Origin: an uncultured Bacilli bacterium
GTDB taxonomy: Bacteria; Bacillota_I; Bacilli_A; RF39; UBA660
Length of the DNA stretch: 40,712 nt
Direction: 5' to 3'
Assembly (NCBI GenBank): GCA_947623735.1
Contig: CANQHE010000008.1
Coordinates: forward strand, 1 to 40,712
Position 1 is the first letter of the stretch; each line of letters opens with the position of its first letter. The notes beneath the pieces were generated by a model. That model saw only the letters and a list, made by a program, of their open reading frames with translations, ran no database searches and was not told where the DNA came from. The translations under genes and the position numbers were made by a program. Below are positions 7,954 through 33,858 of this stretch, in pieces.

Positions 7954-9579
7954 TTAAGATGTTTGGACTACGTATGGATTTCCAGATGAACCTTCTGTTC
8001 CATTATCATTGAAATCAAACTTTGTATCAGCTTTCAGATTTATTACTGGGCGCACACCAGTGTTAGTGTTGTTTACGCCGTTGCTGCCGTTGAGTCTGCC
8101 AATATCATCCACAACGAACACGACAGCATTCTGGAACGACGAACTATTATAATAATAGTAAAACGGAGACATTGCCCAATAATATTTACCGGTTTTTAAC
8201 CAATAGTTTGCATTGGTTTTTCCAAAAAAACCTCCAGCATAGATTACTTCATCCATTGTAATTAAACCAACTGGTACAGGAAGTGCATTATTTCCTTCAA
8301 CATTTCCGCTTAGTCCTTTCGTTCCTCCGCTTGTTGCACCCGGACCGGTATACAAATCTCTTTTTCTTGCATTTTCATCTGTTTTTTGTGTTGATACGGT
8401 ATATCCACATTTTAATGTTGGAGTTTGTGGATTTGAAGCACTTGTACTTCCGCTCTGCCATACTCTATCTGTTCCAGCATATGTGGTTTTGTTAGAACCG
8501 AATCCTAAACTTCCTGTTCCTGGGTAGCTATCTCCATGATTAATTGTGGATGCTGTACTATCACTACAGAATCCTGTGTCTACATCTATATATTGAGCTG
8601 CTAATGTTCCTAAGTTTGTATCTTGGTTATACCATGACTCTATTTGAGTTAATGCATCACTCTTGGTACTAGTTTTATCTACTTTATGTGCTCCATCAAA
8701 ATTTGAACTTGCTGTTCCTTTTTGACCTGGATACATATATCCTACATATTTATTATCATTATATGTTTGATTAAAATATACCGCTCTAGGATATGAATTG
8801 TTATTTGTACTTGTTTTTGGTTTTATCATTGTTTCATCACCTGTTGTTGATGGAGCAGATGTCTTACTGTTACTTGTTCCAGCATACATCAATCTTATCG
8901 TTCCATTGCCATTGATTCTTATTATTCGCCACCATATATATTTATCACCATCTGAAGTATCTTTTCCAAATACTACCCAGTTGTTATCTACTGTTCCTCG
9001 ATAATAATAACTTGTTCCATAATCATCTTCAGCCTCATATATCCCATTTTGTTTTAAATCACATCCACTATCACATGATGTACCTGTAAATGTCGCACTT
9101 CCTTTTGAAGTTAAACCTAAATCATTAAGTACATCTTCGCTAATTATTTCTTTTTCATCAAAAAATAAATAACATTTTGTTCCTTTTTTACTATATGGTT
9201 TGACACTTATTGTTTTATTTTTATTATCAAAATTTATTGTTAAATTATTATTTCTTACATCTTTAAAATTATCACTATCATCACTATATTTTTCTGTACA
9301 ATAACTCATACCTTGATTAAGTACATAATTATCATCTATGGTATCTACATCTGTATAATTTTCATTACCGCTTGCTTTGAACTTTATTTCAGCTAACTCA
9401 AAATCCACTAACGTATAATTAATCGTTCCACTAGCTAGTTTTCTACTTTCAACTAACTTATACTTTGCTCTTGTAAAAAATAAATTAATTATAATAAATA
9501 TTAAAGCACATATTATAAAACCAATTATAAATGCCTTCTTTACATTTCCACTACTATAATTCAATTTCTCAAACTTCAA
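7954..9579 (-). CDS. Membrane-anchored surface protein with C-terminal lectin-like variable region (module A)
   Basis: 541 residues starting at a TTG (GGAAG ribosome binding site; the transmembrane segment precedes any ATG in frame). Residues about 14-36 form one membrane anchor, with the rest probably outside the cell. The middle carries Cys pairs and the conserved block DDYGTSYYYRG...YIWWRIIRING...TIRLMYAGTS shared with the module B paralogue. The C-terminal domain has PVPVGLITMDEVIYAGG, YYWAMSP and GVRPVINLK, the frame of a formylglycine-enzyme/C-type-lectin fold. The 115 bases at 8051-8166 are much GC-richer than the rest and look like a retroelement variable region. No sortase motif seen. 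Ligand unknown. Confidence 0.75.
   Translation of the reverse strand: MKFEKLNYSSGNVKKAFIIGFIICALIFIIINLFFTRAKYKLVESRKLASGTINYTLVDFELAEIKFKASGNENYTDVDTIDDNYVLNQGMSYCTEKYSDDSDNFKDVRNNNLTINFDNKNKTISVKPYSKKGTKCYLFFDEKEIISEDVLNDLGLTSKGSATFTGTSCDSGCDLKQNGIYEAEDDYGTSYYYRGTVDNNWVVFGKDTSDGDKYIWWRIIRINGNGTIRLMYAGTSNSKTSAPSTTGDETMIKPKTSTNNNSYPRAVYFNQTYNDNKYVGYMYPGQKGTASSNFDGAHKVDKTSTKSDALTQIESWYNQDTNLGTLAAQYIDVDTGFCSDSTASTINHGDSYPGTGSLGFGSNKTTYAGTDRVWQSGSTSASNPQTPTLKCGYTVSTQKTDENARKRDLYTGPGATSGGTKGLSGNVEGNNALPVPVGLITMDEVIYAGGFFGKTNANYWLKTGKYYWAMSPFYYYYNSSSFQNAVVFVVDDIGRLNGSNGVNNTNTGVRPVINLKADTKFDFNDNGTEGSSGNPYVVQTS
8051..8166 (-). other. Candidate DGR variable region A
   Basis: Coding segment between the conserved P of YYWAMSP and the conserved TNTGVRP. 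Compared with the paralogue at 32501-32592, constant codons (GTG TTC, GTG, GAT, GGC, CTC) alternate with codons that differ only in their first two bases and keep a pyrimidine third base (GTC/AGC, GTT/TAT, GAT/ACT, ATT/AGT). This is what adenine mutagenesis of AAY template codons gives. One pair (AGA/AAC) does not fit, and A has seven more codons just after the conserved P. Confidence 0.6.
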
Positions 9580-32424: not shown

Positions 32425-33858
32425 CTATTCTATAACATATGGGTCTGTATCTATACCTGTTCCAGTTATTTCAACATTTGCTTTAATGTTTATTACAGGG
32501 CGAGCACCAGTGTTAGTGACGTGCACGCCGCCGTAGCCGAGGTTGCCACTATCAGTCACATAGAACACGCTAGCATTCGGATAGCGGCCCGGAGTCATTG
32601 TCCAATAATATTGATTTGTATATAACCAATAACCTTTGTTGTACATTCCTCCAAAACCTCCTGCAAATACTACTTCATCACTTGTTATTAAACCAACTGG
32701 TACTGGTAAAGTATTATTTCCTTTTACTATTTTTCCGTTGCTGCCTTTTGTTCCCCCTTCATTGGCACTCGGACCTGTATACAAGTCTCTTTCTTGTGCT
32801 GTTTTATCTATTGAACCATCTGACTTATATCCACACTTTAATGTTGGCGTTTGAGTTTTCTTCCAACTACCATTATTAATAAATCTTCCCAATGGGGCAT
32901 ATCCTGTATAACTTGTTCCGTAGCCATCACCTTGAAAACTTGTATCAGCGGTTTTATCTACTTGTCTATCTCCACAGAATCCTGTATCTACATCTATGAA
33001 TTGGTCAGCTAGTGTTCCTAAGTTTGTATTATTTGTATACCAATTTACTATTTCATCTAATACTGTACTATTACTTGCATTTGTATGTGTTTCAGCAAAA
33101 CTGGACTTACCTGTCCCACCTGTCCTATAACCTACATATGTATTATCATCTGCTGGATTATTAAAATACACAGCACGAGGATATGAACTACTAATAGTTT
33201 GTCGTGGCGTTATCATTGTATCTACTCCTTGAGTGCTAGGAGCGGTTTTATTACTGCTACTTGTTCCAGCATAAATAAGTCTTATTGTTCCATTTCCATT
33301 AATTCGAATGATCCTCCACCAAATGTATTGTTTATTTATTGTATCTTGTCCAAACACTAACCAGTTATTATTGACTGTTCCTCTATAATAGTAGCTAGTT
33401 CCAAAATCATCTTCCGCTTCATAAACACCATTTTGATTCATATTTTTATTTCCGCAATTACCTGAACTTGAATAACAACTGGGGCCGGTAAACTCTTTTA
33501 CTTCACCATTTGATGTTAAGTTAAATTTGGCTAAAGTTTTTCCACTCTCTGTTAAATTGAAATATAAATAACAACTAGTATTATCCTTAGTTAAATTACT
33601 TAATTTTAAACTATTCGTATTACTATTCCATTTAGGAATTGCTCCATTACTACATTTACTCTTACTACTATTTAAAACATAATCTCCTTTAGGTATAGCA
33701 TTTGTTTTTTCATAAGTTCCATCTTTTTCAATATATAAAGCCATCATATTATTAGCCATAATATCTTTTTCATTTAAAGTTTTTGTTTTACTACTAACAA
33801 ACATTACTCCTAAAGTAACTCCAAAACCAACTAACACTAAACATATTTTCTTTATCAC
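32425..33858 (-). CDS. Membrane-anchored surface protein with C-terminal lectin-like variable region (module B)
   Basis: 477 residues from a GTG at 33858 (AAGGGAAG ribosome binding site). N-terminal signal or anchor at residues 5-22, then a Lys/Ser/Asn-rich region with paired cysteines. From about residue 120 it aligns along its length with the module A protein (EAEDDFGTSYYYRG, YIWWRIIRINGNGTIRLIYAGTSS, DVDTGFCGD, TPTLKCGY, RDLYTGPSA, NNTLPVPVGLITSDEVVFAGG). The last segment, YYWTMTP to TNTGARPVINIK, holds the candidate variable region. Both module proteins start with non-ATG codons. The N-terminal 100 residues are unrelated between the two. Confidence 0.75.
   Translation of the reverse strand: MIKKICLVLVGFGVTLGVMFVSSKTKTLNEKDIMANNMMALYIEKDGTYEKTNAIPKGDYVLNSSKSKCSNGAIPKWNSNTNSLKLSNLTKDNTSCYLYFNLTESGKTLAKFNLTSNGEVKEFTGPSCYSSSGNCGNKNMNQNGVYEAEDDFGTSYYYRGTVNNNWLVFGQDTINKQYIWWRIIRINGNGTIRLIYAGTSSSNKTAPSTQGVDTMITPRQTISSSYPRAVYFNNPADDNTYVGYRTGGTGKSSFAETHTNASNSTVLDEIVNWYTNNTNLGTLADQFIDVDTGFCGDRQVDKTADTSFQGDGYGTSYTGYAPLGRFINNGSWKKTQTPTLKCGYKSDGSIDKTAQERDLYTGPSANEGGTKGSNGKIVKGNNTLPVPVGLITSDEVVFAGGFGGMYNKGYWLYTNQYYWTMTPGRYPNASVFYVTDSGNLGYGGVHVTNTGARPVINIKANVEITGTGIDTDPYVIE
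32501..32592 (-). other. Candidate DGR variable region B
   Basis: GC-rich coding segment from the conserved P of YYWTMTP to TNTGARP. It shares CACTAACACTGGTG (minus strand, 32505-32518) with region A at 8055-8068, which would be the homing-site end. The codons between conserved ones keep C or T as third base (AGC, TAT, ACT, AGT, AAC, GGC, TAC, GGC, CAC). See region A for the codon comparison. Confidence 0.6.

Follow-up and report, generated by a model that had tools for sequence, protein, structure and literature searches.

Diversity-generating retroelements (DGRs) are usually described as systems in which one invariant template feeds one or few target genes. Antigenic variation by silent cassettes (pilE/pilS, vls) pairs a stock of partial copies with mosaic expressed genes. 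The DGR of Bordetella phage BPP-1 has one template repeat (TR) beside the reverse transcriptase (RT) and the target; the TR is not diversified, and a hairpin follows the variable repeat (VR) (PMC3240598). Several remote surface-protein targets, two to seven per isolate, are served by the DGR of Treponema denticola, with one TR per genome beside the RT (PMC4891356). The DGRs of Thiohalocapsa PB-PSB1 act in trans, with several RT-TR loci and fourteen targets, and each VR matches one TR at all non-A sites (PMC10907252). Remote or trans targets were already known (PMC10907252, PMC4891356, PMC3521204), and a survey lists DGRs that have more than one TR; in the accessible part of that survey, such cases were called on single sequence records with the RT, and dispersed structured template genes or mosaics are not described (PMC6642488).

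The window analysed here is a whole stretch of 40,712 nt (bases 1–40712 of contig C8) from the draft genome of an uncultured Bacilli bacterium (1.34 Mb, 77 contigs, 91% complete). Judging from sequence comparison, two of its segments are very probably VRs of a DGR acting wholly in trans, with a remote RT operon, at least 11 template RNA genes, mosaic VRs, and diversified templates. The system has the defining features of a DGR, namely the type of RT and the A-directed difference between template and target, and it has Avd in addition. It resembles the BPP-1 element (bRT, Avd, TR, and mtd VR) in its related RT, its Avd, the changes directed by template A, which lie near the C-terminus of a probably lectin-like protein, and the GC-rich box that ends the repeat on its 3′ side. 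It departs from BPP-1 and from usual DGRs in the location, number, and stability of the templates, which are many dispersed and diversified RNA genes, and in the lack of a hairpin downstream of the VRs. The partial-copy library and the mosaic expressed genes recall pilE/pilS and vls, from which the present system differs by its RT, structured RNAs, and A-directed changes. As in T. denticola (PMC4891356), one cellular DGR has several remote surface-protein targets, but 11 trans templates and approximately 37 targets were found here. Neither a free-standing template RNA gene family nor mosaics have been described for Thiohalocapsa PB-PSB1 (PMC10907252), unlike here. The literature searched, the coverage of which left out most subscription journals and preprints, contained no account of a dispersed structured template RNA gene family, of mosaic VRs, or of A-directed divergence among templates.

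Probable Variable Repeats in the Window

The sequence-only reading of the window had described two GC-rich minus-strand segments (8051–8166 and 32501–32592) in two C-terminal domains, with common sequence at one end and fixed codons alternating with NNC/NNT codons, and this description was borne out. The segments lay in frame near the C-termini of the ORFs of targets 1 and 2 (Table 1), and their GC contents were 45% and 60%, respectively, compared with 28% for the window. The common 14-mer CACTAACACTGGTG occurred exactly twice in the window (8055–8068 and 32505–32518) and in none of 100 shuffles of it. The full repeats, the limits of which are approximate, were a little longer than first noted and were bounded by a CTCCG box at one end and by GGTGTGCGCCC (first) or GGTGCTCGCCC (second) at the other. 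The two exceptions flagged in the same reading, the codon pair AGA/AAC and a length difference, were real, and both are compatible with two copies from different templates. The misfit of these features to a single template is explained by the mosaic composition that most VRs appear to have.

No template copy was found in the 40,712-nt window, so the interpretation of both genes as remote targets was right. A genome search for A-rich template copies and a DGR-type RT, which had been proposed, found both in the same genome. The claim that both genes are DGR targets with the machinery elsewhere was supported, with two refinements. The genome has two DGR-type RTs, either of which may serve these genes, and one template common to the two window genes was rejected because both fitted several of the 11 templates better under the copying model.

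Table 1. Features of the window discussed in the text.
Feature	Coordinates	Strand	Basis and remarks
Putative target gene 1, 541 aa	7954..9579	-	ORF; N-terminal membrane helix, probably lectin-like C-terminal domain with VR1; one of approximately 37 paralogous targets
Variable repeat 1 (VR1)	8048..8170	-	CTCCG anchor to GGTGTGCGCCC box; template-VR alignment and copying model
GC-rich box GGTGTGCGCCC, 3′ end of VR1	8048..8058	-	IMH-like position; same box in 11/11 templates
Double helix-turn-helix (XRE-type) regulator gene, 149 aa	9737..10186	+	Pfam HTH_3 2.3e-27; divergent, 158 nt from target 1
Putative target gene 2, 477 aa	32425..33858	-	ORF; paralogous surface protein with VR2
Variable repeat 2 (VR2)	32498..32604	-	Template-VR alignment and copying model
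GC-rich box GGTGCTCGCCC, 3′ end of VR2	32498..32508	-	Sequence
Double helix-turn-helix (XRE-type) regulator gene, 151 aa	34024..34479	+	Pfam HTH_3 6e-26; divergent, 166 nt from target 2

Target Genes and Their Products

The genome was searched with the two window segments, and approximately 40 copies were found on more than 20 contigs. Two classes of copies were told apart by the sequence after the GC-rich box GGTGTGCGCCC. The first class, the VRs, comprised approximately 39 copies that mostly ran on as AGTAATAAAYCT, in frame, in approximately 37 genes. Most VRs ended 18–28 aa before the C-terminus, the C-terminal position that is typical of DGRs, and three long target proteins also held an internal VR copy. 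The VR-bearing ORFs were mostly 460–1026 aa in length, with an N-terminal hydrophobic stretch. On these sequence features, the approximately 37 target genes appear to encode membrane-anchored surface proteins that bear the marks of rewriting by an error-prone RT at their tips.

The target genes were paralogous over their whole length, and target 2 was 48% identical to target 1 (alignment A3). The structure model of target 1 had a mean pLDDT of 79. A Foldseek search with the full-length model gave no significant match. A second look with VIA-align gave an IgA-peptidase region (Z 12.2), Lcl (5.4), Mtd (3.9), the BPP-1 target, and CD23 (3.5); the lectin-type matches came only from VIA-align and were weaker than the IgA-peptidase match. 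A lectin-like ligand-binding tip on a membrane-anchored target protein is likely.

A divergent gene for a double helix-turn-helix regulator of approximately 150 aa was located upstream of at least 18 of the 36 targets, including both window targets, mostly at a distance of 140–180 nt; the same orientation was seen in none. The two divergent regulators of the window probably control the adjoining targets 1 and 2. The presence of such a regulator at half of the targets suggests that the targets may be turned on and off one by one.

Putative Template RNA Genes

The second class, the templates, comprised 11 intergenic copies that were non-coding and A-rich and ran on as AATATCCTTTT after the box. 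Five were located on C12, two on C1, two on C10, and one each on C18 and C35, and four of the C12 copies stood in a row at a spacing of approximately 305–316 nt. The architecture was the same in all 11, with a 5′ leader (GGGTTAATCT-like), the template, the GC-rich box, and a conserved 3′ domain of approximately 80 nt, which holds a long hairpin and is followed by a small hairpin and then by a terminator hairpin with a T run. A TATAAT-like sequence was located just upstream of most templates and was not clear at C35 and at one C1 copy. Some templates of this genome, and some of the sister species G018, were without the 5′ half.

The consensus fold of the template RNA contained 63 pairs, 21 of them with compensatory changes. 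Pairing of the leader with AGATTAATCC, where the 3′ domain ends, closes the RNA around the template. In this closing helix, 97.5% of the cells pair (52 RNAs, five genomes), a value reached by 0 of 2000 shuffles, and the compensatory changes were T-A to C-G or A-T and G-C to T-A or A-T. Since the pairing was kept to this extent, most template copies look maintained. From sequence and predicted fold, each template appears to be an RNA gene in its own right, structured and closed by a helix, with a conserved 3′ domain, a terminator, and in most cases a promoter. No Rfam family matched the three stretches that hold 8 of the 11 templates (L022, L030, and L027), and no template copies were found in IMG/VR with two exact patterns.

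A covariance model of the 3′ domain, the E-values of which are rough, detected copies in 32 of the 36 genomes of the genus, the highest number in one genome being 25; of the four genomes without a match, three also had no detected RT. Beyond the genus, among 243 genomes sampled from the family, the template RNA was found in one genome of one other genus (G137). The five template-like RNAs of G137 (L198–L202) had the same leader and 3′ arm and a different box, GGCGTGCGC. Given these copies, the architecture of the template RNA is older than the genus.

Reverse Transcriptase Operon

On contig C28, an operon carries genes for three proteins: one resembling MutS domain I, one resembling Avd, and an RT of 370 aa. 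The best solved relative of this RT was 8ub7 (5e-29), the BPP-1 DGR reverse transcriptase, and the next best match was at 5e-14. The DGR motif IGxxxSQ was present as IGNMTSQ, together with YMDD, in both RTs of the genome and in the sister species. The Avd-like protein adjoining the RT scored below the curated cut-off in its matches to both Pfam bAvd (1.5e-9) and NCBIfam Avd (2.8e-9). The operon was kept in approximately 20 species, and the closest RT relatives in public records were from uncultured Bacilli, many of the “Lapin” (rabbit) series, and from Candidatus Caccenecus. A template beside the RT, which is usual in DGRs and not defining, was not the arrangement here, with no template-RNA match within the 265 kb around 23 RT loci.

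RT genes with internal stop codons were observed in G001, G007, G009, and G013, which are sister species that still carry template RNAs. These species represent natural losses in which the decay of VRs and templates could be followed.

A-Directed Differences between Templates and Variable Repeats

The VRs with no more than 20% non-A mismatch to the best template numbered 27. In these VRs, 47.5% of the template A positions differed from the best single template, compared with 10.3% of the other positions. In the reverse direction, with the VR taken as template, there was no enrichment at A (16.6% vs. 23%). Furthermore, the per-column diversity of the VRs tracked the A content of the templates (Spearman 0.83). 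For about a dozen VRs, which may be old or inactive, no template gave a good fit. No stem of at least 7 bp, as in the hairpin or cruciform of phage DGRs, was found in the 60 nt downstream of 40 VRs.

Mosaic Composition of the Variable Repeats

The copying model lets a VR switch between templates along its length. Such switching reduced the non-A mismatches of 26 VRs from 186/1923 to 95/1928, and within the resulting mosaic patches, template A was changed at 351 of 854 positions compared with the 95 of 1928 for the other bases. The best fit of VR1 was a mosaic of the template types C12_17818 (5′) and C12_18446 (3′), with changes at 11/35 template A and 6/84 non-A positions. VR2 was best fitted by C35_2240 (5′), C18_151 (middle), and C12_18446 (3′), with changes at 13/29 and 5/69, respectively. 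The two window VRs were among the less perfect mosaic fits of the genome in their non-A mismatches, and the mosaic gain of each exceeded that of all 200 single-template simulations. In these simulations, one template received an equal number of random non-A changes. The gain exceeded nearly all or all of them in 21 of 27 VRs, with length differences inflating it for some VRs.

Six VRs had zero or one non-A mismatch as mosaics (C4_53313, 0/87; C61_3317, 0/72; C45_2986, 0/71; C22_14635, 0/70; C10_18606, 1/76; C6_9698, 1/74), and each was of the same 5′ length class as its own single best template. Part of the mosaicism could reflect unseen templates because the draft genome may lack some. Ten well-fitting VRs required at least nine different template combinations, which the unseen templates of a 91%-complete genome would hardly supply. 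G018 (99% complete), compared against its own templates, gave mosaics as well; one of its VRs was a two-template mosaic with 0/74 non-A mismatches. By likelihood, templates from the same genome gave the VRs a better fit than templates from the other species in 25/26 and 6/7 cases. A strict three-module compatibility test was too coarse and classified only six VRs, all of them as multi-template. Taken as alignments, most VRs fit as mosaics of two or three templates and not as copies of one.

Diversification of the Templates

In usual DGRs, the template is not diversified and is protected by a different 3′ box. The templates here differed mainly at A, and these non-coding copies therefore appear to be rewritten themselves; because the same 3′ box is present in the templates and in most targets, nothing visible protects them. 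Among the core columns of the templates of this genome, 31/34 of those containing A were variable and 2/39 of the others, a comparison that is in part circular, as variation in a column raises the chance of finding A there. The corresponding values were 28/31 and 3/39 in G018 and 26/29 and 7/41 in G028, and G030, G026, and G031 showed the same direction more weakly. The 3′ domains of the same RNAs showed a weak difference between A and non-A columns. The codon test, with 720 entries from six genomes, is cleaner. Positions 1 and 2 of the AAN codons departed from A 282 and 248 times, respectively, and position 3 departed from the majority 76 times; ordinary mutation, if constrained at the level of the protein, would be expected mainly at the silent third position. 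A leave-one-out template test is not evidence of direction because the comparison of template with template is symmetric. G030, the genome with the highest number of template RNAs (25), had templates with only 17% A in the core, compared with 24–31% in the other five genomes compared, as if these templates were worn out by repeated rewriting.

Mechanism and Alternative Explanations

In the proposed mechanism, the candidate error-prone RT would be supplied by the MutS_I-like/Avd/RT operon on another contig and the templates by at least 11 free-standing RNA genes on five other contigs. In copying a template RNA, the RT would err at random opposite A, and the cDNA would replace the matching 3′ end in one of the approximately 37 surface-protein genes. 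All templates have the anchor codons and the 3′ box in common, so mosaic VRs could be built by partial replacements drawn from more than one template or by template switching. The templates carry the same box and homology and could be overwritten too, by cDNA from other templates or by refilling from VRs, so that the template set would become diversified. We lean toward the view that the template RNA genes are donors as well as recipients, subject either to the same A-directed rewriting or to refilling from successful VRs. The genome would then keep a heritable, evolving library of partly fixed templates, pieces of several of which would be joined per target, giving combinatorial and point diversity.

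An ordinary DGR, with one or two working templates at a time, decaying duplicates as the other copies, and mosaics left by older templates that have changed or been lost, is an unlikely explanation. The second template-target set of the genome, the decayed RT genes of the sister species, and the missing 5′ half of some templates agree with it, but decaying duplicates would not be expected to keep the leader-arm pairing over 52 copies with compensatory changes, or to change at A and not at random. Moreover, the combinations required by the ten well-fitting VRs speak against it, as does the recurrence of the pattern in the 99%-complete G018.

Silent-cassette gene conversion, in which the intergenic copies would be DNA archives converted by a RecA-type process into the expressed surface genes and the RT would have a minor or past role, is judged decidedly improbable. 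The VRs are indeed mosaics of intergenic copies, some of the copies are partial, and one array is tandem. However, DNA conversion leaves unexplained the concentration of changes at A, the structured RNA with closing helix and terminator, and the conserved RT/Avd operon in the same genus. A pattern of patchwork only was not found, since the A-directed changes persisted inside the patches; cassette conversion and a DGR could act together. Strong diversifying selection on paralogous lectin-like surface genes, without templated mutagenesis, is scarcely credible: paralogy extends throughout these genes and variable surface loops are frequent, but non-coding copies with the same codon pattern are not under direct protein selection, the third codon positions are fixed while the first and second change, a DGR-type RT and Avd are present, and the template RNAs and the one-way A bias contradict it.

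If the trans-acting DGR with a diversified template family is the correct reading, a small-genome gut bacterium appears to maintain a dispersed structured template RNA family that serves dozens of surface proteins. Two strategies of surface variation, the shuffling of cassettes and directed point mutation, would then be joined in one RNA-based system. Whether DGR templates evolve and store past variants becomes testable. Natural stand-alone template RNAs of defined structure could also serve directed protein evolution in laboratory hosts.

A Second Template-Target Set and Associated Genes

A second, smaller set was located in the same genome and follows the textbook DGR pattern. It comprised one nearly all-AAC template RNA (C44:4937-5038, minus strand) and three targets, which carry a different 3′ box, TTGCGGCC. 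In two of these targets, template A was changed at 17/35 and 23/35 positions and non-A at 2/67 each; the third has one extra codon and was left out of the counts. This set fitted its single, nearly intact template, and no mosaic was needed.

The second DGR-type RT of the genome, 64% identical to the first, was located at the end of a short contig (C57:3454-4524, minus strand), on which no Avd gene was visible beside it. This RT may serve the second, smaller set. Genes of the PDDEXK_2 type (PD-(D/E)XK nuclease family transposase) adjoined the template loci on C12 and C44 (L022:8473-9411, minus strand, and L197:514-1425, plus strand), and these genes are possibly linked to the spread of the templates.
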